This document shows positions 10,142 to 47,289 of a DNA stretch of 64,000 bases, piece after piece (positions within the stretch are counted from its first letter, which is position 1; the number at the start of each line of letters is the position of its first letter). The position numbers and the translations under genes are program-made. The notes under the pieces are model-generated. The model made no database searches and had not been told where the DNA came from. It was given only the letters and a program-made list of their open reading frames with translations. Origin of the DNA: Selenomonas timonae (GTDB taxonomy: Bacteria > Bacillota > Negativicutes > Selenomonadales > Selenomonadaceae); contig NZ_CP060204.1 of the NCBI RefSeq assembly GCF_014250475.1, positions 1,687,001-1,751,000 of the forward strand, given 5' to 3'.

Positions 10142-10143
10142 CA

Positions 10144-10557: not shown

Positions 10558-10567
10558 GGAGGTTCGT

Positions 10568-11476
10568 ATGGCGTTCAAATACATCAATCCGGGCTATGCG
10601 GAGCTACTTTCGGTTCGTGGCGGCACGACGGTGACGGGCGAGCAGTACAGTAAGACGGGCATATCCTTCTGGCAGCCGACTGGTGACAAAGGTCTGACGA
10701 TTTCAGGATTCCCCACAGAGCTTTACGGGAAATTGGATCTGTACTTCAAAGCACCGGAGAATGCAGACAGTGCCAAACTTACCCTTGCGATTGGAGGCTA
10801 CATCATCGTTAGTGCGGAAACGTCCTGGAGCAGGTGGCGCATGAAGGGAAACAACAATAACGATACCATTGCCACTTCCGACAGCATTCGCGTAAATGCA
10901 GTCAATACCTTGTGGTTTCAGGTCAAACCGGGGCAAAACCATGACGGTATCTTTCGGGCGATCCTAAACGAACGTGAGGTTTGCAACAAGCAGGACTGCT
11001 CTTTTTGGTACGCCTACAGTTCCAGTGAAAAGACCATAACGCTTTACAGCAGAACAGAGGACGTCCTTATCTCGAATCTCATCCTCTCGGACGAGGCGAT
11101 TAGTCCGAGAGAGCAGGTCGTTATACTGCCCGTCCAAGCGACGCAGACGAACATGACCGACTGCGGCGACGGAAGCTATGAGGCGACGGCTGCGAATCAG
11201 GAGCTTTTGCAAACAGTCGATGTTGCCGCCTTGTCCACGCAGTATGGTGCGGACTCGCGTGTGACGGGGATTTCCCTCATCGGGAATCCTGCCTATCGCA
11301 CGGCAGAGGGACTGTGTGCTTTGACGGCGATTGAAAAGAGCGGAGGGAATGTTACGGAATACGGCAGACATATCGCCGAACAGAATCCGACATCCACCGT
11401 TATGGACACGCGCACTGTCTCCATGAGGATTGCAGAACTCATGGGGCGGCAGTTTGGATGGAGAGCGGGGACATGA
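10568..11476 (+). CDS. Phage tail tip/fibre-associated protein (302 aa)
   Basis: This 302-residue protein is predominantly beta: the first 180 residues resemble a carbohydrate-binding-like sandwich (GKLDLYFKAPENADSAKLTL; WYAYSSSEKTITLYSR), and the last 100 residues are different and more helical. I see no enzyme motif. The 3' end overlaps the next gene by an ATGA junction. In phages of this layout, proteins here form the baseplate or fibre attachment, so a surface-binding role is possible but unproven. Confidence 0.7.
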   Translation: MAFKYINPGYAELLSVRGGTTVTGEQYSKTGISFWQPTGDKGLTISGFPTELYGKLDLYFKAPENADSAKLTLAIGGYIIVSAETSWSRWRMKGNNNNDTIATSDSIRVNAVNTLWFQVKPGQNHDGIFRAILNEREVCNKQDCSFWYAYSSSEKTITLYSRTEDVLISNLILSDEAISPREQVVILPVQATQTNMTDCGDGSYEATAANQELLQTVDVAALSTQYGADSRVTGISLIGNPAYRTAEGLCALTAIEKSGGNVTEYGRHIAEQNPTSTVMDTRTVSMRIAELMGRQFGWRAGT

Positions 11477-17645: not shown

Positions 17646-17671
17646 GGGATAGATAATTTGTGAGGGGAAAT

Positions 17672-18697
17672 ATGGACACATTAGGTGTATTTAACGACAT
17701 AAAGACAAAATTTAAAGAGACTGATTTTGGAATTGATGACTCCGTTATAATATGTGGTGATTCCTTAGAGTTGCTAAGACAAATTCCAGACCATAGCATT
17801 GCGCTGATATTGACTGATCCTCCATATCATTCAACCAGGAAAAAGAACATTATAGGCGATACGAGTTTTTCAAAAGACGAAGATTACATTGACTGGATGC
17901 GTCAATTTGCAATCGAGTGGAAAAGGGTATTAAAGTATAATGGTAGCATTTTTTGCTTTTGTTCCTCAACGATGTCTGCACAATTGCAGATGATGTTCTC
18001 GGACTATTTTAATATACTTTCGGAAATAACGTGGACAAAACCTAATGCTCCAGGGTATGACGGTTGGAAACAAAAAATGAAAAAAGAGTCTTTGCGTCAG
18101 TGGTATCCGCATTCGGAGAAAATACTGTTTCTTGAGGGGGCAGAGGATGGAAATCTTTTCAAGAGTTATTTTGGTAGCCAGCTTACAAAATGGCGTAAAA
18201 CGGCAAAGATGTCCATGAAAGAGTTGGCTGAGATAACTAAATCTTACGGGAAGATAAATCACGGTGGAGCAGTGGCGAATTGGGAAGTAGGCAGAAATAT
18301 TCCGAGCAAAGCGCAATATGATAGATTAAAAGACGCATTAACAGGGGCGGGAGTAAATGGTATACCTGATTATGAGGATATAATACGTCCCTTTAATGTC
18401 TGTAAGGATGTCGAGTTTACCGATGTATGGACATTTGAAAATGTACGGCAGTATAGAGGTAAACATCCTGCCGAAAAACCGATTGACTTACTAGAACACG
18501 CAATTAGTGCGACTACATTTGAGGGGGACATCGTTCTGGACTGTTTCTCTGGTTCCGGCTCCACAGGGGTTGCAGCAACACGTTTAAAGAGACTGAGCAT
18601 ACTCATGGAGATCGACCCCAAGTGGTGCAACTATGCATCAAATAAGCTGAGAGGAGAATATTTCTTCGGGAATGAATTATTAACGAGAGCTCAGTAA
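17672..18697 (+). CDS. Type II DNA methyltransferase (beta class N6-A/N4-C)
   Basis: This 341-residue methyltransferase protects host DNA by modifying a specific site. Motif IV DPPY is at 49-52 and the S-adenosylmethionine motif CFSGSGSTG at 291-299, the order of the beta class. Between them lies a target-recognition part that includes an XRE-like helix-turn-helix (about 170-225, WRKTAKMSMKELAEITKS and VANWEVGRNIPS). ATG 17672 is preferred to GTG 17660 for spacing from GAGGGG. It converges on the BstXI-like nuclease gene across a shared hairpin, making a full R-M pair. Sequence specificity cannot be read off. Confidence 0.88.
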   Translation: MDTLGVFNDIKTKFKETDFGIDDSVIICGDSLELLRQIPDHSIALILTDPPYHSTRKKNIIGDTSFSKDEDYIDWMRQFAIEWKRVLKYNGSIFCFCSSTMSAQLQMMFSDYFNILSEITWTKPNAPGYDGWKQKMKKESLRQWYPHSEKILFLEGAEDGNLFKSYFGSQLTKWRKTAKMSMKELAEITKSYGKINHGGAVANWEVGRNIPSKAQYDRLKDALTGAGVNGIPDYEDIIRPFNVCKDVEFTDVWTFENVRQYRGKHPAEKPIDLLEHAISATTFEGDIVLDCFSGSGSTGVAATRLKRLSILMEIDPKWCNYASNKLRGEYFFGNELLTRAQ

Positions 18698-18702
18698 CAA
18701 CC

Positions 18703-18748
18703 TGCCCCCCAAAAAGTTAGACTTAGAAAATCTAGCTTTTGGGGGGCA
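18703..18748. terminator. Bidirectional terminator between convergent R-M genes (IS-end-like palindrome)
   Basis: TGCCCCCCAAAA (from 18703) pairs with TTTTGGGGGGCA (to 18748), and the inner TAGA/TCTA extends the stem. It is flanked by A and T runs, fitting a terminator for both the methyltransferase and the convergent nuclease gene. The left arm plus GTTAG recurs at 39372-39390 beside IS5 copy 1, so it may instead be the joined ends of a lost insertion sequence. Confidence 0.65.
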
Positions 18749-18784
18749 CTACATATTGTGTACTCGTTTGTTTAATGACAGAGA

Positions 18785-19789
18785 TTAATCCTGATCGATA
18801 AACCCTGCTTTTTTATTGGTCTTCAGTACTGATTGCATCCATGTTAATGTTTGAGCTATTCCCGAATCTTTGACAACTACATTACAGAAATGATGCCCCC
18901 AGCCCAGATTATATGGCTTATGGTTAAATGCACCGAACTTCAGTTCATCAATATGGAAAAGATTAACTTGTGTAACGGTTAGATCTGGGACTTCTCTTCC
19001 CTCAGGTTGCTTCACACGATTGAGAAATTCACGGCCAGAAAGTTCTTTTAGGCATAAAGGGCAAATCGTGTGCCGTTGGCTGTTGATGATACGCATTTCC
19101 ATTAATCTTCCGTAATCAAGAAGACCTTGTTCTTCGCACAACTTAAGTATTCGTTCTTTTCGGGAGAGTGCATCCTCTTTTGTCATTCCGTTTTCGGATG
19201 CTACTTCTACGGCATCATAACAGAGCCAGTATTCTGCCTCAAGTTGCTGACGGCAAGCAGCAATAGTGGCTTGATTGGCATATTCATACAGACGAATCCC
19301 TGCACCTTTGGGGGATTGAGAGGCATATCCAAGGTTTATTTTCTTTGCTTTTTCGGCATCATTTGCTGTAGTTGCCGGTACTCGTGCTACATATTCGCCA
19401 CCAAGAGGCGCTTGCCTACAATTGGCGGCTTTCCATTTGAGCATCTCTGGACTGTGAGAGTCCCAGTCACTTCTCGTTTCGTAAAAGATAAGAGCGTTAT
19501 TTCCGAGAACGAGAGCATTCTCGAAAAGCGTTTTTTGGGGATCTTCCCACGAAAAATACTCCGAAGGGGGAATCAGAACGATATATCCTTTTTCAAATAT
19601 GTTCTCTCTTGCAAGTTTTCTCAAATTACCGTCTTGTATCCATTGATGAAACGGAATCAAGACGGTATTATTTCGCCCTACACGATTTTGATAAATGACA
19701 TCATCGTCTGCTCCACGGGTCTGACCCGTTTTACTAATTTTTCTTTCGAGAAGCTGTGGAAGTTTTGGTAATCGTTTTTTTTGGGTCAT
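18785..19789 (-). CDS. BstXI-like type II restriction endonuclease
   Basis: This 334-residue protein resembles the BstXI restriction endonuclease family. Its C-terminal part has the family's Cys/His cluster: HTICPLCLKELSGREF, then HIDELKFGAFNHKPYNLGWG and HHFCNVVVKDS, an HNH-like metal site with two Cys pairs. The N-terminus NNTVLIPFHQWIQDGN is also typical. The minus-strand GGGAG site is well placed for ATG 19789. It converges with the methyltransferase gene. If it follows BstXI, it would cut an interrupted palindrome, but specificity is not provable here. Confidence 0.75.
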   Translation of the reverse strand: MTQKKRLPKLPQLLERKISKTGQTRGADDDVIYQNRVGRNNTVLIPFHQWIQDGNLRKLARENIFEKGYIVLIPPSEYFSWEDPQKTLFENALVLGNNALIFYETRSDWDSHSPEMLKWKAANCRQAPLGGEYVARVPATTANDAEKAKKINLGYASQSPKGAGIRLYEYANQATIAACRQQLEAEYWLCYDAVEVASENGMTKEDALSRKERILKLCEEQGLLDYGRLMEMRIINSQRHTICPLCLKELSGREFLNRVKQPEGREVPDLTVTQVNLFHIDELKFGAFNHKPYNLGWGHHFCNVVVKDSGIAQTLTWMQSVLKTNKKAGFIDQD

Positions 19790-20632: not shown

Positions 20633-22450
20633 TTACTCTACGCCATGAAGAAAACCGGGACGGCCTTCCGTCAGCCCCTTGGTGAAGGTGATGACATTGG
20701 CTCCTGCTGCCTCATAGTCCAAATCCGGCAGATTCTTGGAATTCTCAATGATAATCAGCTGCCCCTCCTCTTGGTGGTTCATGAAATAGCGAAAGAGTCC
20801 GGAACACATACTTTCCGGCGCAGAATCCGCTACGCCTTGGTCAAGACCAAGAAGGGGCGTGTCAATGATGAGGAAGCCCGGGTAATACTTGCCATGGTGG
20901 GCAAGATAGTGACGGAAGGTGAGTGCAGTTACGCTGTTGACAAAGGACGTATATCCCTGCCCTTCATGGGTAGATTTTTTATGCCCATTAATCTCTATAT
21001 CAAAATCGGAGATGTTGAAATTGGCAACAATAGGCTCTGTCGAATAATTGCATTCACGAAGGATGTCCTTGTAATATTGGTTGATGAGTCTTTTGAAATC
21101 GTCATCAAAATGCTCTCTGGGATGATATTGCAACGCAGATTCCGGCTCGACCGGAGGATTCCTTAAATCTGCCTCCCAGCCGACTGCAAAATCGTCGATT
21201 ACGCTCATCTCGCGCTTTAATTGCAGGAAGTTTTTGTAGTCTGCGAGTGATTTGCGCATCGCCTCTGCTTTAGGACGCAGCTCCTGCTGAATGTGGCACT
21301 CGATGCTGTCCTTCTCGGCATCGAGTTTTGCCATCTCCTCTGACATCCAGTTCATTTCCTCGGCGAGCGACTGTTCTGCTTTCGTCAAATCATTCATCTG
21401 AGCCAATATGCGGGACAGTTCTCCACGGGCAGATTCGATGTAGGTTTCATCATCCTTGGGCGTGAAATGACTTTCGCAAAAGGGGCAGACGGTGTTCTTA
21501 TCGTGAACGCTCCGACTCATCTCGCCGTCGGCAATAAAGGTCAGTCTCTTGATGTCGGCTGTGTACTGGCTCTTGAGGGCGGTGTACCGGGACTTCATCA
21601 GTTCCGCCTCAGTCATTTTCTCCTGCAGTTCGCTGATTTCTTGCACCAGTTCCTGTCGGCGGGAGAGAGCTGCAGAGATCGCAGATTCCGTCTGCTCAAT
21701 CCCTGCAATGAGGGCGGTCATCTGCTGCTCCACATCAATGCCCTGAAACGCCGTCATCTGTTTTTGCAGCACCTTCTTCTTCTCAGAGATGTTGCTGATC
21801 TGCCTGTTCACATATCTTAAAATGGCATTTCGCTCTGCGATTCGGATTTCCTTCTTGGTCTGCTCATCGTGCTCGGGAAAATTGGAGCCGGTCATCAAAA
21901 ACAGCAGGGAAGAGAGAAAGACGGTCTTTTGAATGCTTTCCTTCGGCTCCAACACGGATTCTACCTTGCCGATGTCATTGTTGAGAAAGAGCAGCATGTG
22001 GAGGAAGGTTCGGAGTGTCAGTGGTGCCCGCTTGAAATCGATGTTCTTGATCACCATGCAGGGGACGGGAATCCCCATTGCGCTCAAAAGCAGGTCACTC
22101 AGCACAGGCAAGCCGTTTCTTTGACTCTGACTGTATTTCAGATTGTATTTGTCACTCATCATGCCGGGGATGTTGGTTATCACGTCCACTTGATCCTTGT
22201 GAAATTTACGCGTGATACTGATCGTGCCATCGGCAGCCTGCACCAGAAGTTCCACTTCGTCATAACCAAAAGTCTCGTCTATGGGGAAGTCACCCATTTT
22301 GCCAAGAGCAAAATCAATACACCGAGCAACGGCGGTCTTCCCGGTATTCGACCGCCCACAGATGATGTTCAGACCGGGGGTGAAATCCACGAAAGAGTCG
22401 CGCTTGCCTATGCCTCTTGCCGTGACACGGCTAAAATATATTCCGGCCAT
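20633..22450 (-). CDS. ABC-3C system ATPase (DUF3732)
   Basis: This is a 605-residue SMC/Rad50-like ATPase of the DUF3732 family. Walker A is GRSNTGKT (about residues 32-39). Coiled coils occupy roughly 205-420 with a zinc-hook-like CPFC in the middle (VCPFCESHF). The C-terminal lobe has EGQGYTSFVNSV (signature-like) and the Walker B strand YPGFLIIDTPLLGLD. In ABC-three-component conflict systems such an ATPase is thought to sense invading nucleic acid and act with a middle component and an effector; both are encoded just upstream on the same strand, with a 4-base gap. The exact trigger is unknown. Confidence 0.82.
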   Translation of the reverse strand: MAGIYFSRVTARGIGKRDSFVDFTPGLNIICGRSNTGKTAVARCIDFALGKMGDFPIDETFGYDEVELLVQAADGTISITRKFHKDQVDVITNIPGMMSDKYNLKYSQSQRNGLPVLSDLLLSAMGIPVPCMVIKNIDFKRAPLTLRTFLHMLLFLNNDIGKVESVLEPKESIQKTVFLSSLLFLMTGSNFPEHDEQTKKEIRIAERNAILRYVNRQISNISEKKKVLQKQMTAFQGIDVEQQMTALIAGIEQTESAISAALSRRQELVQEISELQEKMTEAELMKSRYTALKSQYTADIKRLTFIADGEMSRSVHDKNTVCPFCESHFTPKDDETYIESARGELSRILAQMNDLTKAEQSLAEEMNWMSEEMAKLDAEKDSIECHIQQELRPKAEAMRKSLADYKNFLQLKREMSVIDDFAVGWEADLRNPPVEPESALQYHPREHFDDDFKRLINQYYKDILRECNYSTEPIVANFNISDFDIEINGHKKSTHEGQGYTSFVNSVTALTFRHYLAHHGKYYPGFLIIDTPLLGLDQGVADSAPESMCSGLFRYFMNHQEEGQLIIIENSKNLPDLDYEAAGANVITFTKGLTEGRPGFLHGVE

Positions 22451-22454
22451 CCAT

Positions 22455-22904
22455 TTATCTCCTCTTTAGCGCGTCCATCGCCTGTCGCGTAATCTTTGAA
22501 AGCAAAGACGCATCGGATGTTTTTCCAAGCATTCGGTGTGTCTTTTTTACTGTCTCCATATATGCTGCAGCGTATTCGGACTGCATGGATTTCACGAACT
22601 CACGGCCGCGCTCATTCAGTCCGAACAAGAATCCTCCGGGGGAGGGGGCTACAGAGATAAAGCCGTCCAGCACAAGGGATCTCAGTGCGCCGTTTAACTG
22701 CTCCCGCTTGGCGGGGAGTTCACTAAAACTGAACTGGTTTTCGCCGTGCAGGTTTTGTTCTGCCATACCGAAATCCCGTCCATAGACTGTCATAAGGTCA
22801 TACGCCGCGATGCGGTCAATGGTTATGGAACGCGGCTTTACGGCAGAGAGGATGAGCAAAATGCGAAGTGACACCTCAAAGGACGTATTGAACAGTTTAG
22901 GCAT
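22455..22904 (-). CDS. ABC-3C system middle component (MC2-like)
   Basis: This 149-residue winged-helix protein has the pattern of ABC-three-component middle component 2: an N-terminal LFNTSFEVSLRILLILSA, then IDRIAAYDLMTVYGRDFG with 'NLHGENQFSFSE', and a helical tail. It overlaps the effector stop by 8 bases and precedes the ATPase by 4 bases, so all three are co-translated in fixed order. The family role is bridging the ATPase and the effector; here that is inferred from the neighbours and pattern. Confidence 0.78.
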   Translation of the reverse strand: MPKLFNTSFEVSLRILLILSAVKPRSITIDRIAAYDLMTVYGRDFGMAEQNLHGENQFSFSELPAKREQLNGALRSLVLDGFISVAPSPGGFLFGLNERGREFVKSMQSEYAAAYMETVKKTHRMLGKTSDASLLSKITRQAMDALKRR

Positions 22905-23910
22905 CGATGTTCACCCACGATTTGATTCGCTCGTCATCTACCAAGATATGGCAGACGCCCTTCCGTGTTCTGTTCGAGATGAAGCCCTTGATATTGACGA
23001 GGTTCGACTTGGCAAGTTCTGTGCTGGTGATTTTCTTCAATACTTCCTGCAGGCGGACGTAACCAGTCTCATGATTCTCGTCAAAATACACCATCTCGAT
23101 GCCGTCATAGGCGTCATCCTTCAGCGCGTCAAATTGGTGCTCTCCGTCTACGAAGGCATCCCTTACGCTGTGCTGGATGCTTTTGGCATCGAAATATGCC
23201 TCTCTCTGCCGCTTTAAATGCTGCTGCAGATTCTCCGGCAATTCTCCTGCGGTATCGGGGGTGACTTCTCTTTCGAGACGCTCCGAATACACCTCGCAGA
23301 GTGCATTGATATACGGGAGCGTGGCGTCGTTGATGTCCTCGTGAGGCATTAGGGCAGGATGCAGTTTGATGATCTCGCCGCTGAGCAGATAGACCGAGCC
23401 ATTCGCAAATCGGGAGGGGTGAATCGGCACGGCGGGAACAACCTCGCCGACTTCATTCCTTCCTTCAAAGAGATCAATTTGGGCGCCGGGGAGTTTTTGC
23501 AGTTCCGCTTTGATGATGCTGCAGAAAATCTCGGCGCACGTCTCGTCTACATTGTCTGTGGTGCAATCTACCCCGTATTGAGAGAGGTCGGTGCACAGAT
23601 TTTTGCGGGCATCGAAGGGGATATCCGCAGCTGCTTCCAAGAAGCGGCTCTTGTCGAGATTGGCATGAACCGCCCGCAGGACAGATTCCGGGATGTCTCT
23701 CTTTCCCTTGTACATTTTGTAGGCGGCACTTTTCTCAGATTCCTTGCCGAAAGGGTAGTACTTGTCATCATCGTCCAGACCAACCTCGCGAGAAGAGATC
23801 GGTTCCTTCATAAAGAGGGCGAAGAAGTAGGCGCAGAAACTCGGTATTGATTTGTTCTCCGCACCAACGTACTTTCTCATGATCTGTAAAAACAGACTGA
23901 TGGTTAACAC
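22897..23910 (-). CDS. ABC-3C system effector-type protein
   Basis: This 337-residue protein is the first gene of the operon. Its C-terminal end (LAKSNLVNIKGFISNRTRKG, then VCHILVDDERIKSWV) matches the conserved C-terminal domain of ABC-3C proteins. The N-terminal 130 residues (FCAYFFALFMKEPISSREVG; YKMYKGKRDIPESVLRAV) look like a helical HTH-type module; no nuclease motif is evident. I take GTG 23910 as the start, because GGGGGAG is five bases upstream; ATG 23880 lacks a ribosome site. What the effector does to cells or phage DNA is not visible. Confidence 0.72.
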   Translation of the reverse strand: MLTISLFLQIMRKYVGAENKSIPSFCAYFFALFMKEPISSREVGLDDDDKYYPFGKESEKSAAYKMYKGKRDIPESVLRAVHANLDKSRFLEAAADIPFDARKNLCTDLSQYGVDCTTDNVDETCAEIFCSIIKAELQKLPGAQIDLFEGRNEVGEVVPAVPIHPSRFANGSVYLLSGEIIKLHPALMPHEDINDATLPYINALCEVYSERLEREVTPDTAGELPENLQQHLKRQREAYFDAKSIQHSVRDAFVDGEHQFDALKDDAYDGIEMVYFDENHETGYVRLQEVLKKITSTELAKSNLVNIKGFISNRTRKGVCHILVDDERIKSWVNIDA

Positions 23911-23933
23911 AAAACTCCCCCTTCGCGAAAAGT

Positions 23934-23948
23934 GGACAGAGTCTGTCC
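23934..23948. promoter_or_regulatory. 15-bp palindrome before the ABC-3C operon
   Basis: GGACAGAGTCTGTCC is a perfect palindrome with 7-base arms, 24 bases upstream of the proposed effector start. It could be an operator or a short hairpin in the leader. Confidence 0.5.
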
Positions 23949-24044
23949 GCTCCCGTCCACCGGAGTCCAATTTTCGAGGGAGCGGATTTGGTATGCTTTA
24001 CCCGGATGGTGAGAGAACATCATCGCAGATAAAACACAGTTTCT

Positions 24045-35371: not shown

Positions 35372-35653
35372 ATGAAACTGGAACACATTCAAAATGAGTT
35401 GAAGAATCATGTGGGGGATTTCGTGCGGACGGAGGCAAAGGAAGCGACCGTTCTTTGGCTGCACGAGAAAGGACTCCCGGCGGCGTGTGAAGTATCGGCG
35501 GCGTATACGGCGGCACTTCGCGAGAGTGCCGAGAAGGAAACGGGATGGTGCAGATTCCGTGACCGCATCTTCTTGCCGCTTGTCATCGACGGGGCAATCT
35601 GGATGACGGGCAAGATGCTTGAGCGCATGACTTCCCCTCATTCTGTGAAATGA
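35372..35653 (+). CDS. Small phage protein after amidase, unknown (93 aa)
   Basis: This 93-residue protein is amphipathic and charged at the N-terminus (MKLEHIQNELKNHVGDFVRT) and hydrophobic towards the end (FRDRIFLPLVIDGAIWMTGK). It lies between amidase and cytosine methylase, and its stop overlaps the next start (ATGATG). A lysis accessory role is imaginable by position only. GGAGAG precedes ATG 35372. Family not recognised. Confidence 0.65.
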   Translation: MKLEHIQNELKNHVGDFVRTEAKEATVLWLHEKGLPAACEVSAAYTAALRESAEKETGWCRFRDRIFLPLVIDGAIWMTGKMLERMTSPHSVK

Positions 35654-36936
35654 TGACGCTCGGGAGTTTGTTTGACGGGAGTGGAGGATTCACACTCGGT
35701 GCTGTTCTTGCGGGGATTACACCAAAGTGGGCATCGGAGGTTGAGCCGTTCCCGATTCGCGTCACCACGAAGCGGCTTCCTTCCGTCAAACATCTTGGAG
35801 ACATCCATCGGATTCACGGCGATGAGATCGAGCCTGTGGACATCATCACCTTCGGTTCTCCCTGCACGAATCTCAGCATCGCGGGACGGAGGGAGGGGCT
35901 GCATGGGCAGGAGTCCATACTGTTCTTCGAGGCAATTCGTATCGTTCGGGAAATGAGGAGGGGGACGGATGGGAAATATCCGAGATTCATCGTGTGGGAA
36001 AACGTCGCGGGAGCATTCTCAAGTGCCGAGGGGCGTGACTTCCAGTCTGTCCTTACGGAGATCGTCCGCATCAAGGAGCCGCAGGCTCCCGAGGTGCCTT
36101 TGCCTCAAAAGGATGGATGGGCATACGCAGACATTCTTCTGGGAGACGGATGGAGCGTTGCGTACCGGCTCATGGACGCACAGGGCTGGGGAGTTCCACA
36201 GCGTCGGCGCAGAATCTACCTTGTCGCAGATTTTGGAGGATCAAGTGCCGGAGAGATACTATTTGACACCGAAAGCGTGCGTCGGGATCTTGCGCCGTGC
36301 TTCGCTGCGTGGCAAGGCACTGCCAGAGAGTTTGCGGATGGCACTGGAACGGCAAGCGAGAGGGTAAGTGCGGGTTTCTGTACCGAGCATTCCGCACAGA
36401 GCCGCAGCATTGGCTATGCGGAGGAGACATCTCCAACGCTTCGTGCGGGCAGAGTCCCTGCCGTATTTGAATCGCATGGGGCAGACGCGCGGTATAGCGG
36501 ACCCCTTCCTGTTGCGCCGACGGTCTCTCGCCATTACGGCACGGGCGGGAACAATCAGCCGCTTGTATTGAAGGACGTACAAGCATACGGCATCTCGTCA
36601 TTCCAGTCCAACGCTATGCGCTCGGATAACCCAAACTCTGGCATATACGAAACGGAGACGGCGCGGACGATTGACCAAAGCGGCGGGAACCCTGCGTGCT
36701 GTCAGGGCGGCGTTGCCGTTGTTTCCATCCAAGGTTCGATGATCGGACGACAGGAGAAGAACGGCCCGCAGGGAAGCGGCATCGCAGAGAATGTGAGTTT
36801 TACCCTCAACACAGCCGACCGTCATGCGGTCTATGCCATGACCACGGGCTGCCACTCTCATTTTGCAAAGGAGAAATGTCCGACATTGATGGCGCGGGAC
36901 TTCAAAGACCCAACGGTCGTGAATCAGCCGGTCTAA
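35650..36936 (+). CDS. DNA cytosine-5 methyltransferase, 3' truncated
   Basis: This C5-methyltransferase has motif I SLFDGSGGFTLG, the catalytic loop GSPCTNLS (Cys in motif IV, near residue 77), ENV (motif VI) and PQRRRRIYLV (motif VIII). The following recognition region is present, but the last family motifs (the usual RRLTP...QGFP and final GNA...P segments) are missing: the frame ends after LMARDFKDPTVVNQPV, where the sequence passes directly into a serine recombinase gene. At 428 residues it is probably inactive. It shows a deletion or recombination junction near 36930. Confidence 0.85.
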   Translation: MMTLGSLFDGSGGFTLGAVLAGITPKWASEVEPFPIRVTTKRLPSVKHLGDIHRIHGDEIEPVDIITFGSPCTNLSIAGRREGLHGQESILFFEAIRIVREMRRGTDGKYPRFIVWENVAGAFSSAEGRDFQSVLTEIVRIKEPQAPEVPLPQKDGWAYADILLGDGWSVAYRLMDAQGWGVPQRRRRIYLVADFGGSSAGEILFDTESVRRDLAPCFAAWQGTAREFADGTGTASERVSAGFCTEHSAQSRSIGYAEETSPTLRAGRVPAVFESHGADARYSGPLPVAPTVSRHYGTGGNNQPLVLKDVQAYGISSFQSNAMRSDNPNSGIYETETARTIDQSGGNPACCQGGVAVVSIQGSMIGRQEKNGPQGSGIAENVSFTLNTADRHAVYAMTTGCHSHFAKEKCPTLMARDFKDPTVVNQPV

Positions 36937-37799
36937 TTTCCACAGTGCGCTCCATCCTCACAAACGAGAAGTATCGCGGCGATGCGCTGATTCAGAAACA
37001 ATATACGGCAGACTTCTTGGATAAGACGCGACGTAAGAACACGGGCGAGATTCCGCAGTATTATGTGGAAGAGCACCACGAGGCGATTATTCCGCCGGAC
37101 TTATTCGACTTTGTGCAATTGGAGATAAAACGCAGAGAGCAGAACGGGAAGCACAGCGGCGTGAGCATCTTCGCGAACAAAATCAAATGCGGCTGCTGCG
37201 GCGGTTACTACGGGGCGAAAGTGTGGCACTCCACGGATAAGTACCGCAGGATCATCTACCGCTGCAACAAGAAATATGCCCACAAGGAGAAGCCGTGCAG
37301 CACACGGCATTTGACGGAAGAGGAAATCAAACGGATTTTCGTTAAGGCTCTGAACTCCTTGGTGGAAGTCAAAGAGAATGTGATTGCGGAACTCAGATCC
37401 CTGATTAACGGCGTTTGCCAGACAGGGGAGTTGACTGAGGAACACGATAGAACAGAGCAGGAACTCTGCGTTTTGACAGAACGGCTCGAAATGCTGATTC
37501 GTGAGAATGCACGGGTAGCACAGGATCAGACGGAGTATCTGAAACAGGAAAATAAGATTCGTGCACACTATCTGGAAAAGCAGGATCATCTGATGAGGTT
37601 GGACGAGCAAATTGCCGAAAGGGAGAGCAAGAGAAACACCTTGGAGGGCATGATTCAAGTGATATGCGGTATCAACGGGGAGCAGGTTGCGTTTGACGAG
37701 GAGCTATGGAGTGGGCTGCTCGACCACATTGTGGTTAAGGAGGGCGGAGCGGTGATTGTTGTTTTCAAGGGCGGGATTGAGATTGGTGTTGAGGGGTGA
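36936..37799 (+). pseudogene. Large serine recombinase, C-terminal fragment
   Basis: The frame begins to match recombinases at ISTVRSILTNEKYRGDAL and continues with the recombinase domain (YYVEEHHEAIIPPDLFDFVQ), the zinc ribbon (KCGCCGGYYGAKV...CNKKYAHKEKPC) and the coiled-coil end (EHDRTEQELCVLTERLEMLI). The catalytic domain is absent. It is consistent with the missing C-terminal half of the gene that starts at 16667, though about 110 residues between the halves are found nowhere in the window. It ends the prophage region; DUF389 follows. Confidence 0.87.
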
Positions 37800-37857
37800 G
37801 AATATAGGAGAGCTTCCATTCGTCATATTGTATGTTTTGAATATCTCTTTCAAAAAA

Positions 37858-37940: not shown

Positions 37941-39310
37941 TTGATTTTGGATAAGCTAAAAAAATTTTTGACTTGCATGGAGACATTGCGTCAATACAGG
38001 AAATTACAGAGCGGATCAACGCTGGCGTTCAGTTTCGGGGGACGAATCTCAGTGTCCTGATGCTGGCGATCTTCATTGCCTCCATCGGTCTCAATATGAA
38101 CAGTACGGCAGTCATTATCGGCGCGATGCTGATCTCTCCGCTGATGGGGTCGATCCTTGGGATTGGCTATGGACTTGCTCGTTATGACGGCACATATATC
38201 TGTTCCAGCGCAGGGAGTCTGTTCGCCCAAGTGTTCATTTCGATTGCCACATCGACGCTTTATTTTTCCCTCACACCGATTGATACGCCCTCGTCGGAAC
38301 TACTTGCGCGGACATCGCCGACCATCTGGGACGTTTTGATCGCGGTCTTTGGCGGGCTCGCGGGCATCATCGGTGTAACCCGCAAAGAGGGCGGGAATGT
38401 CATCCCCGGTGTTGCGATTGCGACGGCTCTGATGCCGCCGCTCTGTACCGCAGGATATGGCTTTGCGACGGGCGTGACAGCGTACGCGGTGGGGGCTCTC
38501 TATCTGTTCTTTATCAACAGTTTCTTTATCTGTCTGACGGCATTTGTTGTCCTCAAAATCATTGATGTCCCCTCGAAGATTGCGCGGGATTCTGTCGAGT
38601 TTTCAAGGCAGAAACACTATTTGCTGACCATTGCCATGATTGTCACCTTGCCCAGCTGTTTCTTTGCGTATCAGAGCGTGGAGGAAAATCTGCAGAACGA
38701 GCAGGCAAAGAGTTATATCGAGGAGAATTTCAAAGCACCGCCCCGTCTGGCAATCTCCTATACGTTGGACAACGAGAAGAAAATGCTGACGGTATTTACG
38801 ACTGCCGGAATAGCGGAGGACGACTTGGCGGCATTGACGGAGAAGCTGCATGAAAAGAAACACCTCAGACCATTCCAGCTGGAGGTCTTTTCTGCGGAAA
38901 CGGTGGAAGAGCGGGAAAAGACGGAGGCGATGATCGAGCGCAGGCTCAGCGAGGTTGAAAAAAGAGGCATTCCCACCGTGCAGGAACAGCAGACCGTGAC
39001 CGCACTCAAGTCTGCCCGCGAGGAAAGCGAGAAGCAGAGCACTTACATCTTGGACTGGAATCGTGAGGCGCGCATTGTATTTCCGCAAATCTCCCGCATC
39101 GCCGTCGGGAGTGTGCACGCCCCAGCCCCTGCGGCAGATAAAGTGGCTTCTCTGAGTGAAATGCACATTGCGTTCGTCTATCTTCAAGCTGATCTGGACG
39201 AAGCGGCGCGTACACGTCTGACCGAGTGGCTTTCTGCCAAAGCACAGCGCAGTGTAGAGGTACATTTCCTGCCCGAAGCCCCTGTAGTAGAGGAAAATGA
39301 GGCGACGTAA
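37941..39310 (+). CDS. DUF389 family membrane protein (probable frameshift at N-terminus)
   Basis: This integral membrane protein of the DUF389/TIGR00341 family has about six helices in the first 200 residues (LSVLMLAIFIASIGLNMNST; VIIGAMLISPLMGSILGIG; VIPGVAIATALMPPLCTAGY) and a large soluble C-terminal part. Function in bacteria is not settled. The long frame begins at TTG 37973 (HGDIASIQEI), with no ribosome site there. AGGAG and TTG 37941 open another frame (LILDKLKKFL) whose end would join the long frame if one base were added to the A7/T5 run at 37959-37969. I therefore read one gene from 37941 with a 1-base loss; the visible product from 37973 is 445 aa. Confidence 0.82.
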
Positions 39311-39373
39311 TCAGTGCTTGTGGACGGATTTCGTATGTTGTGAAGAAAAAACACATAGGACTGCATAATGACC

Positions 39374-39390
39374 TGCCCCCCAAAAGTTAG
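39374..39390 (+). repeat. TGCCCCCCAAAAGTTAG, arm of the 18703 palindrome
   Basis: This 17-base sequence equals the left arm of the palindrome at 18703-18748 (which has one more A). Here the other arm is absent; IS5 copy 1 begins at the next base, and its TTAG flank is the end of this arm. It may be the stub of an older insertion-sequence end. Confidence 0.55.
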
Positions 39391-40637
39391 GGAAACGCTG
39401 AAAAATTCTTTTGTTGCACGATTGAGCTCCGAAATATTACAATAGAGGAAGACAGCAACACGACGAGAGAGAGGCAACATCATGGTGCAGCAAACCTTTA
39501 CCGACATGGAGTACGCAAACCGCAAGAGAACAACACGGCGTGAAGCCTTTCTGCAAGCCATGGAATCCATCATTCCTTGGAACGAATGGATGGCGCTCAT
39601 CGCGCCGCACTATATCCAGAAAGAGCGTGGCAGAAAACTGATCCCGCTTGAGACAATGTTGCGTATGTACATCCTGCAGATCCGGTTCGGTCTCTCGGAC
39701 GAGGGAGTCGAGGATGCCATCTATGACAGCTACGCCATGAAACACTTCCTGAAGATCGACTTCTCCAGAGAACAGACACCCGATGCCACGACACTCCTTC
39801 ACTTCCGCCACTTGCTGGAAAAACACGACATCACGCGCAAGATCTTTGATGACGTAAAACAGCGGCTGGACGCCTCGGGGCTCATCATGCACGGCGGTAC
39901 AATCGTTGACGCAACCATCATTCATGCACCGAGTTCGACCAAGAACGCCACGAAGACCCGCGACCCTGAAATGCACTCCGTCAGGAAAGGGAATCAATGG
40001 TTCTTCGGCATGAAGATCCATTCCGGTGCGGATGCCGGAACAGGCTAAGTCCATACGATCACAGCGACCGCCGCCAACGTGCACGACATTGTCCAAGCCC
40101 ATGCGCTGATCCGCGAAGATGATCATTTTTTCTATGGGGATTCAGGGTATCTCGGTGTGGAAAAGCGCACGGAAATCCGAGAGACACCCGCTCTTTCAGA
40201 CGTGGACTACCGCATTGCCCAAAGACTCTCGCAGAACCGCATGACGAAAGAATACAAAGGAATGAATTGGGACAGACAGATCGAGCACGAGAAAACTTCC
40301 ATCCGCTGCAAGGTGGAGCATCCGTTCCTCATTGTGAAGCGGCTGTTCCAAGCGGGCAGGACAAGGTATCGTGGCATCAAGAAGAACCTGCTCCGTTACT
40401 ATCTACTCTTTGCATCGGCGAACCTCGTCATGTGTTTGAGGGCAGGAAGGCAGAGGGCGTTCTGCATGACAATGGGATAAGTGCGCCCTTTTTCCCAAAT
40501 TTCCCGGTGAAACGGGCGATTCGGGGAAGAAAAAGGGGCAATGAGAGCAGTATTGCACGCTCTTTTGTATTGCAATTTGTGAAATTTGTGTCTGCGGATC
40601 AGCTGGCTGTGATTATCCACTATTTATCAGTGATTCC
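39391..40637 (+). mobile_element. IS5-family element, copy 1
   Basis: The ends GGAAACGCTGAAAAATTC (left) and the complement of TTTATCAGTGATTCC (right) are imperfect terminal inverted repeats. The left flank is TTAG and the right flank TTAA; both fit the IS5 YTAR target, but they are not identical, suggesting recombination between copies after insertion. The transposase gene is broken by one stop codon. Confidence 0.85.
39482..40480 (+). pseudogene. IS5-family transposase, one in-frame stop
   Basis: The 333-codon frame encodes a DDE transposase: TIVDATIIHAPSSTKN with the first Asp, YGDSGYLGVEKR with the second, and CKVEHPFLIVKRLF with the Glu. TAA at 40046-40048 replaces the TAC found at the same codon of copy 2. 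Everything else is intact and equal in length to copy 2. ATG 39482 follows GAGAGAGG. It is inactive as read. Confidence 0.9.
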
Positions 40638-40720
40638 TTAAAATAGGGGATAAGGTTTTCTTTAATGTTTGAAGAAGAGAAATAGATATATTTATTATTA
40701 TATTGAGAGGAGTCATTTTG

Positions 40721-42160
40721 ATGGATAGAATCGAACTATCAAAGCATATAAAAAAAGGTGATACACTATATACTCCTTATACCGATCCGGAAGGGCTTGG
40801 ATCTGCGTTAAGTTTATCGAGCTGGTCTCAGAATTGGCTTCCAGAATTTTTATGGATTGGGCTAATTATTCATAAATACGGGAGAAAAATAGGCTTAGAG
40901 AGAATTTATCATATTATTGATGAATTAAACTCATGGTCGATATGTGTTCCTCAGTTTTCGAAAATACTTGACTTAGAGCGAGAAAAAAGAGAGCGTTTTT
41001 GGTCTATCGTCTTAAAATATGTGGATCGTGATGTATTGGCTTCATTTACAATTGTTGTGACACCAGATATAGATGATGTCTTTTATAATTTCTTTTTTGA
41101 TTATTCGATAAATATTGATGAGAGCATTTCTGAACTTTTTACAATAATTAAAGAATGTAGTAAATTTCATGATGAGCTTACAACAGATATATGTTTCGCC
41201 TTGGATTGGTTCTATGTAAAGAGTGGGAGATTACATATTTCAAGTGGAGTAGATCTATTGCCACAGGCATTGACTGCTTATTACAAATATGATCATTCTG
41301 ATGAGATAATGAGGACGTATAGACCTGTAATAAGGTCAACATTTCAAGGGTTATGTAGTATTGATAGTAGTAAAGAATTTTCAAAATTGATATGGGGAAG
41401 ATTGGGAGAAGTATCTGAATGTAATCCATTAATAATACTGTGGGACGGAAGTGAAAAAATGAAATTCTTTGATAAGATAACAAAAGTTATTGATTATATT
41501 GCTGCGACTAATGATGACAAAAAGATGGATGAAAAGTATGCGGTTATAATGGGGCTTACTTGCTATATTTATAAAATTTACAGAGAAATATCAGAAAAAA
41601 AACTTGAGAACAACATAAGCGGAAGGATACTTTTTAGAACTATGGTGGAAAGTTACATAAATTTGAAATATATTATGTTGCAAGAAAAAGAAATTCCTGA
41701 TGTGTATAATAGATTTAAGGCTTATGGACTTGGGAAGTACAAGCTTGTTATGGCCAAGATGAGGGAAGGGAAATATTCTGTTTCTGATGATGCGCAGTTT
41801 CACCAAAGAATCATGGAACTTCTTGTTAATGAGGATATGGACGAAGCATTTGTTAATACTAGTTTTGGATACTTTGACAAAACTCAGATAAACAAAAAAT
41901 TTACTTTGTGTGATGAACTAATGTTGTATGAAATTTACTACGAATATGGAACAAATTTTACTCACGGTTTTTGGGGAGCAATAAGAGAAACTTCAATGCT
42001 TATATGTGACAATCCAGCCCATAATTACCATACTGTCCCTGATTATTATGCCGAACAGAAATTAAGAAGCGTGCAAGATGATTGTGATATGATTATGAGG
42101 AAATTATTTGAACTTATTTCAGGATATATTGAACTTCCGGATTTCTATTATGTTGAGTAA
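40721..42160 (+). CDS. DUF5677-like protein of an A/T-rich two-gene operon
   Basis: This 479-residue protein has a C-terminal part (about 300-470) like DUF5677 proteins: the helix ILFRTMVESYINLKYIM and a later YYEYGTNFTHGFWGAIRETS with conserved His. The N-terminal part is helical and not recognised. DUF5677 genes occur in defence islands, but their activity is unknown. GAGAGGAG precedes ATG 40721. Base composition is much richer in A/T than all neighbours, showing transfer. The gene lies between IS5 copy 1 and an IS5 fragment and is followed after 21 bases by a second gene of the same composition. Confidence 0.78.
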   Translation: MDRIELSKHIKKGDTLYTPYTDPEGLGSALSLSSWSQNWLPEFLWIGLIIHKYGRKIGLERIYHIIDELNSWSICVPQFSKILDLEREKRERFWSIVLKYVDRDVLASFTIVVTPDIDDVFYNFFFDYSINIDESISELFTIIKECSKFHDELTTDICFALDWFYVKSGRLHISSGVDLLPQALTAYYKYDHSDEIMRTYRPVIRSTFQGLCSIDSSKEFSKLIWGRLGEVSECNPLIILWDGSEKMKFFDKITKVIDYIAATNDDKKMDEKYAVIMGLTCYIYKIYREISEKKLENNISGRILFRTMVESYINLKYIMLQEKEIPDVYNRFKAYGLGKYKLVMAKMREGKYSVSDDAQFHQRIMELLVNEDMDEAFVNTSFGYFDKTQINKKFTLCDELMLYEIYYEYGTNFTHGFWGAIRETSMLICDNPAHNYHTVPDYYAEQKLRSVQDDCDMIMRKLFELISGYIELPDFYYVE

Positions 42161-42181
42161 GTTCAGGAGGGAGAAATTAGG

Positions 42182-43264
42182 TTGATCGAAACAAAACCAT
42201 TAAAGAGAATAATGAAGGAATATCTTTCTATTCTTGAAAAATACGAAGACAAAATAGATTGTTTTGAACAAGAAGATATTAAGAGGCTGATAGGAGAAGT
42301 TCGCTTATTTTGGTATCGTCAGAAACGTTATATACGTTATTTTCTTTCAAATATTGATAAAGAGGATAATGTAACATATTTATCAGGGGCTGTAAGATTG
42401 GATATAAAAAATTCTGGTCACAAAGAGTATATTATTGTAAAAGGATGTAAGTTAGTAAATGATCCATTAATGAAAATGACGTCTTTTTATCATGGAACAG
42501 ATGGTGAAATAAATTTTGAAACAGCAAATAGATATTTAAAGGATTGTTTTTCTGATATGCTTGTGCTTTTACGTGAGTATTCTGAAGACTTTTTTGTAAT
42601 TCTATTAGAAACAATAACTACTACAGATAACGACGAATATCATAAGGCGCTTGTTGATGCTGCGGAACAAATGTTATTGTCGTTTTTTTCTAAGCGGTAT
42701 GGTTCTATTGAGGAAATGAAGAATGATAATTCTTCATATGAGGAGTTAGATAACCATTTATACAGCTGGATAAAAGAAAGATTGGTTTTTGATTCTATTG
42801 AAGATAGTAAATTGTCAATAGAAGAAAAATGTAAAAAAGCTCTTAATGCCGAAAAAGAGTATATTCCGTTCATGGAATCGATGAGTGAATCTGATCTATT
42901 TTTTATCTTAGTAATTCAGCATTGCATGGGGGCGATGGCAACATTTAATTGTATGCAGAACTTAAGAATTATGCCATATATTAGGAATGATATTGCTTTT
43001 CAATATTTTGATTTGCTTTTTCATTCAAGTATAAATGGTAAATTTGATATACTCGATTATTTGCAAGTACTTGTACCTTATATATTACAAAAGAAATTTG
43101 ATTTTTCTGAATGGGATTATGAGGAAGTAAAGCAGAAAATGGGTGAAGGCGTTCTTATTGATTATATTCTTGAGAACATAGTAATCGAAGAAGATGGATA
43201 TCCAAGAATTTCTGATATAGTTGAAAAAGCAAAAGATTATATAGAAAAATTGGAAATGAGTTAA
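42182..43264 (+). CDS. Unknown helical protein, second gene of A/T-rich operon
   Basis: This 360-residue protein has no recognised family. It is rich in Lys, Glu, Ile and Tyr, mostly helical (LKRIMKEYLSILEKYEDKID; EEKCKKALNAEKEYIPFMES), with one hydrophobic stretch (SDLFFILVIQHCMGAMATFN). The start is TTG 42182, 11 bases after AGGAGG; ATG 42212 is an alternative. The stop TAA is part of the TTAA flank of the inverted IS5 fragment that starts at 43265, so the original C-terminus may have been longer. It is almost certainly co-transcribed with the DUF5677-like gene. Confidence 0.75.
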   Translation: MIETKPLKRIMKEYLSILEKYEDKIDCFEQEDIKRLIGEVRLFWYRQKRYIRYFLSNIDKEDNVTYLSGAVRLDIKNSGHKEYIIVKGCKLVNDPLMKMTSFYHGTDGEINFETANRYLKDCFSDMLVLLREYSEDFFVILLETITTTDNDEYHKALVDAAEQMLLSFFSKRYGSIEEMKNDNSSYEELDNHLYSWIKERLVFDSIEDSKLSIEEKCKKALNAEKEYIPFMESMSESDLFFILVIQHCMGAMATFNCMQNLRIMPYIRNDIAFQYFDLLFHSSINGKFDILDYLQVLVPYILQKKFDFSEWDYEEVKQKMGEGVLIDYILENIVIEEDGYPRISDIVEKAKDYIEKLEMS

Positions 43265-43334
43265 GGAATCACTGATAAATAGTGGATAATCACGGCCAGC
43301 TGATCCGCAGACACAAACTGCAATACAAAAGAGC
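43265..43334 (-). mobile_element. IS5-family fragment (right end, inverted)
   Basis: GGAATCACTGATAAATAGTG and the following bases are the reverse complement of the right end of the IS5 copies (through the CAATACAAAAGAGCG segment). The rest is missing: IS256 sequence starts at about 43336. TTAA flanks it at 43261-43264. This is a third IS5 copy, cut by the IS256 insertion. Confidence 0.82.
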
Positions 43335-43335
43335 G

Positions 43336-44275
43336 GGGAGTGTATAATAAACTGTGTAAGTAGGAAGACAGCTTAGGAGCACTCCCCGTGAGGGGAAGTC
43401 AAAAACTAAGGAGGAAACCTTATGTCAAAGAGACCCCCACGGCGCGGTGCAACGCTCGCTAAGGCAATTATCGAAGAGTATCAGCCCAAGAGTGTAGAAG
43501 ACATGCAAAACGCCCTCAAAGAAATCTTCGGCCCCATGTTTGAAGCCATGCTCAACGGCGAGATGGAAAACCATCTCGGTTACATGAGCAACGAGCGCAG
43601 CGAAAAGGATACAGCAAATCGCCGCAACGGATATACCCAAAAAGTCCTCAAAACCTCAGCAGGCGAGGTTCCCATCAGCGTCCCAAGAGACCGTGACGGC
43701 TCTTTTACACCGCAAATCGTTCCCAAAAGACAGACGGACGTCTCGTCCATTGAAGGAAAAGTTCTCGCGATGTATGCCAGAGGAATGAGTCAGCGAGACA
43801 TCTCCTCGACCATCGATGACATCTATGGCTTTATGCTCAGTGCTGAGCAAATCTCGCATATTACAGACAGTGTGCTTGATGAGCTGCATGAATGGCAAAA
43901 TCGACCGCTCAAGGCATTTTATCCATTTGTCTTCGTTGACTGTATCTATGTTTCAATGCGCGGTGACAAAGGCGTATCTGATCAAGCGGTATATGTGATC
44001 CTCGGATATGACCTGAAAGGCAAGAAAGACGTTCTAGGGCTATGGATGGGCGATACGGAAAGCAAACATCACTGGATGCAGGTATTTGACGAGATCAAAG
44101 CACGCGGCGTACAGGACATCGGCTTCATATCAATGGACGGAGTGAGCGGCCTGGAAGACGGCGCAAAGTCGATCTTTAAGAACGTCGTGGTACAGCGGTG
44201 CATTGTTCACCTGATACGCAATTCTCTTAAATACGTTCCGAGCAAGGATTACAAGGCATTTACGGCACAACTTAA
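43336..44275 (+). mobile_element. IS256-family element, 3' truncated
   Basis: The left end GGGGAGTGTATAATAAACTG is typical of IS256-family inverted repeats. The transposase frame begins at 43422 and is interrupted at the IS5 copy 2 insertion (TTAA 44272-44275). No matching right inverted repeat is visible after 45514; at most a short piece of the gene continues there. Confidence 0.8.
43422..44275 (+). pseudogene. IS256-family (mutator type) transposase, truncated
   Basis: About 285 codons of an IS256-family transposase remain: AMLNGEMENHLGYMSNERSE, RRNGYTQKVLKTSAGEVPIS (typical 'NRRNGY' start of the family), FVDCIYVSMRGDKGVSDQ with catalytic Asp and DIGFISMDGVSGLEDG with the second. The last catalytic Glu region is missing, as the frame enters IS5 copy 2 after FTAQLK. 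Codons continuing to 44330 belong to the IS5. GGAGGAAA precedes ATG 43422. It is inactive. Confidence 0.88.
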
Positions 44276-45510
44276 GGAAACACTGATAAATTCTTATGTT
44301 GCGCAACTCTGCCTCGAAAGATTACAATAGAGAAAGACAATAAACGATGAGGGAGAGACAAAAATGGTGCAGCAAACATTTACAGACATGGAATAGGCAA
44401 ACCGTAACAGAACAACAAAGCGTGAAGCCTTCCTGGATGCCATGGAATCCATCATCCCTTGGAAAGAATGGATGGAACTCATTGCGCCGTTCTATGTCCA
44501 GAAAGAGCGTGGCAGGAAGTTAATCCCGCTCGAAACGATGCTGCGCATGTATCTCATGCAGAACTGGTTCGGTCTCTCGGACGAGGGAATCGAGGATGCA
44601 ATCTATGACAGCTATGCCATGAAGCGCTTCCTGAAGATCGACTTCTCCATCGAACGGACACCGGATGCTACGACACTCCTGCACTTTCGACACCTGCTGG
44701 AAAAGCATGACATCACCCGCAAGATGTTCGATGACGTGAAAGAGCGGCTGGACGCCGCAGGACTCATCATGCACGGCGGTACAATCGTTGACGCCACCAT
44801 CATCCATGCACCAAGCTCGACCAAGAACGCCACGAAGACCCGCGACCCTGAAATGCACTCCGTCAGGAAAGGGAATCAATGGTTCTTCGGCATGAAGATT
44901 CATTCCGGTACGGATGCGGCAACAGGCTACGTTCATACAATCACAGGGACAGCAGCCAACGTGCATGACATCGTGCAGGCGCACGCATTGATCCGAGCGG
45001 ATGACCACAGCGTCTATGGGGACTCTGGGTATCTCGGCGTGGAAAAGCGCGCAGAACTCCTTGAAGATCCTCATCTATCGAGCGTGGATTACCGTATTGC
45101 GAAAAGACCTTCACAGAACCGCACAACAAAGGCGTATGCAGGAGTCAACTGAGACAAGAAGATCGAACACGAGAAAACTTCCATCCGCTGCAAGGTGGAG
45201 CATCCGTTCCTCATTGTGAAGCGGCTGTTCCAAGCGGGCAGGACAAGGTATCGTGGCATCAAGAAGAACCTGCTCCGTTACTATCTGCTCTTTGCATCGG
45301 CGAACCTCGTCATGTGTTTGAGGGCAGGAAGGCAGAGGGCGTTCTGCATGACAATGGGATAAGTGCGCCCTTTTTCCCAAATTTCCCGGTGAAATGGGCG
45401 ATTCGGGGAAGAAAAAGGGGCAATGAGAGCAGTATTGCACGCTCTTTTGTATTGCAATTTGTGTCTGCGGATCAGCTGGCTGTGATTATCCACTATTTAT
45501 CAGTGATTCC
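44276..45510 (+). mobile_element. IS5-family element, copy 2 (inserted in IS256)
   Basis: The left end GGAAACACTGATAAATTC and the complement of the right end share GGAA-CACTGATAAAT. A 4-base target duplication TTAA flanks it (44272-44275 and 45511-45514), matching the IS5 YTAR rule. It interrupts the IS256 transposase, so it is the youngest event in the island. Its transposase has two stop codons. Confidence 0.9.
44364..45362 (+). pseudogene. IS5-family transposase, two in-frame stops
   Basis: It has the same 333-codon frame as copy 1. TAG at 44394-44396 replaces Tyr at codon 11 and TGA at 45150-45152 replaces Trp (TGG in copy 1). DDE residues are preserved between. Protein sequence differs from copy 1 at many positions, while the last 200 bases are almost identical, which suggests gene conversion or recent exchange of the 3' end between copies. 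Confidence 0.9.
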
Positions 45511-45599
45511 TTAAAAACAATTTATCTGGAAGCAAAAAAGTAAAATACAATTTAACCCATGATTAAACCAACGAGATAAAGCCTTAACGCAATACCACA

Positions 45600-45640
45600 C
45601 ACATATCGTGCTACGGTAACGGAAAAGTTGTCGATATGTG
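45600..45640. repeat. 9-base inverted repeat before comM
   Basis: CACATATCG (45600-45608) and CGATATGTG (45632-45640) are perfect inverted arms with a 23-base spacer. They lie in the 397-base gene-free gap between IS5 copy 2 and comM. The other contents of the gap are a possible IS256 remnant, the terminator at 45640 and the comM promoter. Confidence 0.5.
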
Positions 45641-45684
45641 AGATTCCATTCGCCCTACCTAGCGTTTGGAATCTCTTTTCTTTT
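45640..45684 (+). terminator. Strong hairpin terminator upstream of comM
   Basis: GAGATTCCA (45640-45648) pairs perfectly with TGGAATCTC (45667-45675); an inner CGC/GCG pair extends it, and TTTTCTTTT follows. It probably ended the gene formerly upstream of comM, before the IS island formed. Confidence 0.8.
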
Positions 45685-45692
45685 GCAAAGAA

Positions 45693-45726
45693 TCATTAGC
45701 CATCTTGCCCTATCCTGTGTTATAAT
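45693..45726 (+). promoter_or_regulatory. Extended -10 promoter of comM
   Basis: TATAAT at 45721-45726 with TG at 45718-45719 makes an extended -10. The upstream stretch from CATTAG resembles that of DUF389 (27 of 37 bases). Confidence 0.65.
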
Positions 45727-45759
45727 TTTCTTATATTTGAAACGTAGGAGGGAAGGCCG

Positions 45760-47289
45760 TTGTTTGCAAAGACCTATGGTGCGACGACCCTCGGGATAGA
45801 CGGACGGATTATCGACGTTGAGGTGGATGTGTCTCCGGGGCTTCCGGGCTTTGAGCTGGTCGGGCTTCCCGATACGTCGGTAAAGGAGTCGAAGGAGCGG
45901 GTACGCACTGCCATCCGCAACTCCGGTATTCAACTGCGGCAGGAGCGGGTGACGGTGAATCTTGCACCTGCCGATGTGCGAAAGGACAGCTCTGGGCTTG
46001 ATCTGCCGATTGCCGTCGGACTCCTTGCATCCTACGGTATGGTTCCGGAGGCGGCGGTGCAGAGTGCGCTTTTCTCGGCAGAGCTTTCCCTTGATGGGAA
46101 CTGCCGTCCGATCAGCGGCATTCTCCCGATGGCGATTACGGCGCGTGAGCACGGTCTGACAGAGTTCTACGTTGCACCGTCCAATGCAGATGAGGCACTT
46201 CTTATTGACGGGCTGAAGGTCTATGCGGTCGAGAATCTGGCGCAACTTGTGCGCCATCTGACGGGCACGGAGACGCTGACTCCTGCTGTACCACACCCAA
46301 CAGAGCAGAAAAAGGACGCTGCTTTTACGGATGACTTTGCGGACGTACAGGGGCAGTATCAGGCGAAGCGTGCGCTTGAGATTGCAGCGGCGGGAGGGCA
46401 CAATGTGCTCATGGTCGGCGTGCCCGGCTCGGGCAAGACGATGCTGGCACGTCGGATGCCTTCGATTCTGCCGGAGCTGACGAAGGAAGAAGCCATTGAG
46501 ATCACGAAGATCTATAGCATCTCGGGGCTGCTGGGTAAAGATACAGGGCTTGTGACCACGCGGCCCTTCCGCAGTCCGCACCATACCTCCTCGACGGTGG
46601 CGATGATCGGCGGTGGGAGCATCCCGCGCCCGGGCGAGGTGACACTTGCGCATCATGGCGTGCTCTTTCTGGATGAACTGCCGGAGTTCAGCAAGAAGAC
46701 GCTTGAGGTGCTGCGTGAGCCAATCGAGGATCGTCAGATTACGGTGTCGCGTGCGAACGCGACGCTGACCTTTCCCTCTAGTATCATTTTGGTAGCGGCA
46801 ATGAATCCGTGCCCCTGCGGATTTCACGGAGATAAGGATCATATATGTGAGTGTTCTGCGGGCGAGATCAAGCGATATACACGAAAATTATCAGGGCCGT
46901 TGCTTGACCGTATCGATCTTCATATCCGTGTGTCGCGTGTAACCTATGCGGAGCTTCATGCTACGCGTAAGGCGGAATCCTCTGAATCCATTCGTCAGCG
47001 CGTTGTGGCGGCTCGCATTATTCAACGCGAGCGATTGCAGAGACACGGCCTCTTTTGCAATGCACAGATGAATCACAGTATGATAAAGAAATATTGCCGA
47101 CTGGATAAGGATGCGGAAGCGATACTCGAGGCGGCGTTTCATCAGATTAACCTATCGGCACGCTCGCATGACCGCATTATCAAGGTAGCACGGACGATTG
47201 CCGATCTGGGGCAAAGTACGGCCATCACAGCGGCGCATATTGCGGAGGCAATACAGCTGCGCAGCGATGTCGGTCTGAATATTGATTGA
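45760..47289 (+). CDS. comM: YifB/ComM-family Mg chelatase-like AAA ATPase
   Basis: ComM is a hexameric helicase that promotes branch migration during natural transformation and recombination. The 509-residue protein has an N-terminal S5/Lon-like domain (SPGLPGFELVGLPDTSVKES), Walker A GVPGSGKT (about 219-226), Walker B VLFLDELPEF (near 298-307), a zinc-binding NPCPCGFHGDKDHICEC and the C-terminal Mg-chelatase domain (LSGPLLDRIDLHIRVSRVTY). The start is TTG 45760, with AGGAGGGAAGG upstream. Length is normal; it reads alone, with YqfO-like following. Confidence 0.95.
   Translation: MFAKTYGATTLGIDGRIIDVEVDVSPGLPGFELVGLPDTSVKESKERVRTAIRNSGIQLRQERVTVNLAPADVRKDSSGLDLPIAVGLLASYGMVPEAAVQSALFSAELSLDGNCRPISGILPMAITAREHGLTEFYVAPSNADEALLIDGLKVYAVENLAQLVRHLTGTETLTPAVPHPTEQKKDAAFTDDFADVQGQYQAKRALEIAAAGGHNVLMVGVPGSGKTMLARRMPSILPELTKEEAIEITKIYSISGLLGKDTGLVTTRPFRSPHHTSSTVAMIGGGSIPRPGEVTLAHHGVLFLDELPEFSKKTLEVLREPIEDRQITVSRANATLTFPSSIILVAAMNPCPCGFHGDKDHICECSAGEIKRYTRKLSGPLLDRIDLHIRVSRVTYAELHATRKAESSESIRQRVVAARIIQRERLQRHGLFCNAQMNHSMIKKYCRLDKDAEAILEAAFHQINLSARSHDRIIKVARTIADLGQSTAITAAHIAEAIQLRSDVGLNID

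Follow-up and report, generated by a model that had tools for sequence, protein, structure and literature searches.

Two adjacent genes in a 64,000-nucleotide stretch of the Selenomonas timonae chromosome (the window) very probably constitute an intact Aditi anti-phage operon, which was acquired horizontally and became fixed between IS5 and IS256 copies in a defence-rich zone of prophage accretion beside comM. The primary description of Aditi is reportedly that of Millman et al. in 2022, and the names DitA and DitB we take to denote the two proteins of this system. A sequence-only reading of the same DNA had suggested a defence or toxin-type system not previously described. The claim of novelty falls, since both proteins match DitA and DitB over their full length, and Aditi is already counted among the described anti-phage systems (PMC10121019), a 2026 review listing it as such with its mechanism given as unknown (PMC12926258). 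Our literature search likewise found no mechanistic paper on Aditi. The locus itself is ordinary in that a known system lies in a mobile zone rich in defence genes; it contributes a copy, well preserved, of a defence system that has a name but no mechanistic explanation.

Identity and layout of the gene pair

The PADLOC model for DitA (PDLC03826) matches the first open reading frame at E=6.4e-176 (residues 3-478 of 479), and the model for DitB (PDLC03827) matches the second at E=1.7e-95 (residues 2-358 of 360). The assignment of the first protein to DUF5677, made earlier from the sequence alone, holds: PF18928 matches the ditA product at E=2.6e-17, with 63.8 bits against a gathering score of 27.1, and is found in all nine DitA proteins. 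It occupies the C-terminal residues 273-431, behind a helical N-terminal part of about residues 1-270 that is unique. The ditB product has no Pfam or NCBIfam family match and no recognised domain; the NCBIfam search returned no match for DitA either, and a PDB sequence search gave none for DitA and two for DitB, both at chance level only. Full-length matches for both proteins, the same two-gene make-up and the defence-island setting are all shared with Aditi, from which the pair differs in nothing essential; the present copy is bounded by insertion sequences in a comM prophage zone and its ditB starts with TTG, a start that is conserved in Veillonella.

Both frames are intact and lie on the forward strand, ditA at 40721-42160 (ATG start, stop at 42160, 479 aa) and ditB at 42182-43264 (TTG start, stop at 43264, 360 aa). 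The gap between them is 21 nt, and a purine-rich ribosome site stands ahead of each start, so that coordinates and start contexts bear out the two-gene operon proposed earlier. The leader of ditA with its ribosome site fills 40642-40720 (forward strand), where homology to the Veillonella locus reaches the IS5 edge. The GC content is 0.323 in ditA and 0.292 in ditB, in a window of 0.533, and GC3 is 0.27 and 0.23, compared with about 0.61-0.63 in the flanking comM and DUF389 genes. For this length, the stretch beginning at 40651 is the GC minimum of the whole window (0.311; window mean 0.530, s.d. 0.057). A composition unlike everything around it, as the pair had been described, is therefore correct locally but not throughout, since the BstXI-type restriction-modification genes at 17-20 kb are likewise A/T-rich (GC about 0.40-0.44).

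Insertion-sequence bracket and origin of the pair

Upstream of the pair lies a first IS5-type copy (39387-40641, forward strand), the transposase of which is broken by a TAA at 40046-40048. The IS5 copy adjoining ditB is reduced to an inverted 75-nt end of the same IS5 type (43261-43335, reverse strand, 97% complementary), which begins at the ditB stop codon. The TTAA flanking this end includes the stop codon TAA, so DitB is not truncated. There follows an IS256-type (Mutator) element (43336-44271, forward strand; PF00872, E=7.9e-81) with a truncated transposase (43422-44271), cut off by a second IS5-type copy (44272-45514, forward strand) that has TTAA on both sides and a broken transposase frame. 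These coordinates agree with the bracket recognised in the sequence-only reading, namely the first IS5 copy, an inverted IS5 fragment and IS256. Only two near-complete copies of this IS5 exist on the chromosome, and since both of them flank the gene pair, the bracket is unlikely to be coincidental.

By blastn, positions 40641-43264 are homologous to positions 9920-12544 of the Veillonella denticariosi contig (L002) at 86.5% identity, a block that spans exactly from the upstream IS5 end to the ditB stop codon. The insertion is flanked on the left by a DUF389 gene (37973-39310, forward strand; PF04087) and on the right by comM (45760-47289, forward strand; PF01078/PF13541/PF13335). In one congener (G399) the DUF389 gene adjoins comM and the block is absent, and in another (G408) it adjoins a comM 5' copy; relative to these two genomes, about 39351-45639 is inserted in the window. 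Given the exact limits of the Veillonella homology and the congener that lacks the block, the pair is recent horizontal cargo, in line with the mobile cargo proposed earlier, and its transfer was probably helped by the IS copies, perhaps as a composite transposon.

Relatives and possible roles of the two proteins

The association of the two genes withstood comparison across genomes. They are adjacent in seven of eight relatives, from Veillonella to Clostridioides and Streptococcus plasmids (L002, L003, L004, L005, L008/L014, L011 and L012), in all seven with ditA before ditB, at a spacing that runs from about 30 nt to a short overlap. Veillonella denticariosi shares 81% identity with the window for DitA and likewise for DitB; an uncultured Eubacterium, an uncultured Clostridium and Thomasclavelia saccharogumia share 62-65% for DitA and 44-45% for DitB, and more distant relatives are found in genome G262 (33%), on a Clostridioides difficile plasmid (33%) and on a Streptococcus salivarius plasmid (28%). 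With Veillonella left out, divergence is faster in DitB (15-45% identity) than in DitA of the same genomes (27-65%). Comparison of the window with Veillonella gives a dN/dS of 0.21 for ditA and 0.24 for ditB, and both genes are therefore maintained as proteins by purifying selection. The distribution is patchy, with DitA in one of 14 congeners and in 3 of the 398 genomes sampled from the phylum, and no relative was found among viral contigs, phage records or PHROGs. DitB was not found alone as an intact gene; one DitB fragment (genome G397, E=1e-4, four stops) was judged to be noise.

Other defence genes adjoin the pair in several relatives, as would be expected from the earlier proposal, and include CBASS, restriction-modification and DUF262 genes. 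In Veillonella denticariosi a complete CBASS operon (effector-cyclase-E1E2-JAB) ends 0.4 kb before ditA according to PADLOC, which also identifies as neighbours of ditA a type II restriction enzyme and a DUF262 protein (L003), a PDC-S49 gene (L004) and a IIG restriction-modification system (L005). In the window, Lamassu and BstXI-type restriction-modification genes lie 17-23 kb upstream of the pair.

An alignment of nine DitA proteins has 48 invariant columns. The core common to DitA and five single-domain DUF5677 proteins consists of R306-x3-E310, present in all, and H415, present in all but one incomplete sequence; additions specific to DitA are R302, Y335-G-x-G-x2-K341-L, G416-x-W418-G-x2-R422, C429, H434 and H437. 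The single-domain proteins (PF18928) thus resemble the C-terminal domain of DitA in their R-x3-E and distal His, but at about 250-330 aa they are without the 270-aa N-terminal part, and the DitA profile finds them weakly. No clear transmembrane segment indicative of membrane anchoring was detected in either protein (best 19-residue hydropathy 1.2 and 1.6), and AlphaFold models from five-sequence alignments (mean pLDDT 39 for DitA and 46 for DitB) were too poor for fold comparison.

From these conservation patterns we tentatively suggest that the two proteins would act together during phage infection, DitA as an effector whose DUF5677 domain would hold an active or ligand-binding site (R306-x3-E310, H415), and DitB as a sensor or regulator that would detect the infection and control DitA. 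As a result, phage propagation would be blocked, possibly via shutdown of the infected cell. The part of sensor or regulator falls to DitB because of its faster evolution and its absence next to one DitA that is encoded in a prophage. The conserved residues of DitA may instead be structural.

This prophage-borne protein (genome G387, contig L013) is a full-length DitA with 24% identity (PADLOC E=8e-81), and it lies in a prophage with recombination genes, a CI-like repressor and a serine recombinase, all named from their sequence. The DitB profile found no DitB on the 15-kb contig; since in a leave-one-out control it detects all known DitB proteins at E<=1e-31, an overlooked DitB of ordinary divergence is unlikely. 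It is like DitA in its full length but differs in having no DitB on its contig and in its dCTP deaminase and PDC-S25 SIR2 neighbours, and it may work with a different partner or no longer function. One could also speculate, with somewhat less confidence than for the joint action of both proteins, that DitA alone is the Aditi effector through a DUF5677 active site (R306, E310, H415, with the DitA-specific R422 and C429/H434/H437), that DitB is a regulator which can be dispensed with or exchanged, and that the prophage DitA represents an undescribed one-gene variant. The residue list and the DitB-less relative make this division of roles directly testable.

Conserved pairing and defence neighbours support the defence half of the earlier proposal, and no evidence was found for a toxin-antitoxin pair, in which one protein would poison the cell, its partner would neutralise it, and phage infection would upset the balance. 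A single two-gene operon in a mobile location with tight spacing or a small overlap would suit such a pair, but DitA (479 aa) and DitB (360 aa) are both large, neither contains a known toxin or antitoxin domain in Pfam, PADLOC or NCBIfam, a DitA without DitB in G387 is awkward if DitB is the antidote, and no intact DitB was found alone; we consider this reading unlikely. Still less probable is that DitA is a HEPN-type RNase effector, combining Arg and His residues with an all-helical fold, that cleaves RNA upon infection. Many abortive-infection proteins are HEPN proteins, DitA is predicted to be all-helical in a low-confidence model, and Arg, Glu and His are conserved in its DUF5677 domain. 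However, the DitA alignments contain no conserved R-x4-6-H motif, a Pfam HEPN match occurs in none of the nine DitA, and profile-profile comparison with 20 HEPN (PF05168) sequences gave E values of 0.5-0.66, as against 1.8e-8 for single-domain DUF5677 proteins as a positive control; neither motif nor profile links DitA to the HEPN RNase superfamily. That IS activity left the pair behind as neutral or decaying cargo, with some role other than defence, would fit the broken and partly deleted IS copies but is highly improbable in view of the intact frames, the low dN/dS, the conservation of the pair across classes and its defence neighbours.

Further observations on defence genes and comM

The CBASS operon that directly precedes Aditi in Veillonella denticariosi is of the SAVED type and complete (L002, 4783-12544 with Aditi). 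On the G387 contig, the DitA without DitB, a dCTP-deaminase-type defence gene and the PDC-S25 SIR2 gene stand in a row (L013, 7261-13042). The Lamassu system of the window (20633-23970) consists of LmuB (20633-22450, PADLOC E=8e-229) and LmuA (22897-23970), the latter with an ABC-3C CTD6 domain (E=9e-94), and the A/T-richer segment at 17660-19789 encodes a BstXI-type restriction enzyme (PF09552, E=9e-89) and its methyltransferase.

Copies of the 5' part of comM (aa 1-350, about 97% identical) recur in this genome and in those of congeners: at 45640-46805 of the window, at G000:C1:1607177-1608229 and 1655966-1657015, and in L043, L045, L048 and L055. All of them stop at the same point, GCGGCAATGAA, after which comes a conserved left end, CGAAGTAACGTC[AG]ATAACGATACAAT. 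The pattern suggests that serine-integrase prophages have piled up at comM and that every one of them brought a 5' part of its own, by which the gene was made whole again; the window would lie within such an array, and a literature search found no report of stacked comM prophages for this genus. At 35650-37806 of the window, a Dcm-type methyltransferase gene runs into the C-terminal part of a serine integrase; a deletion apparently joined the two, and the junction suggests that the right end of a prophage has collapsed here.
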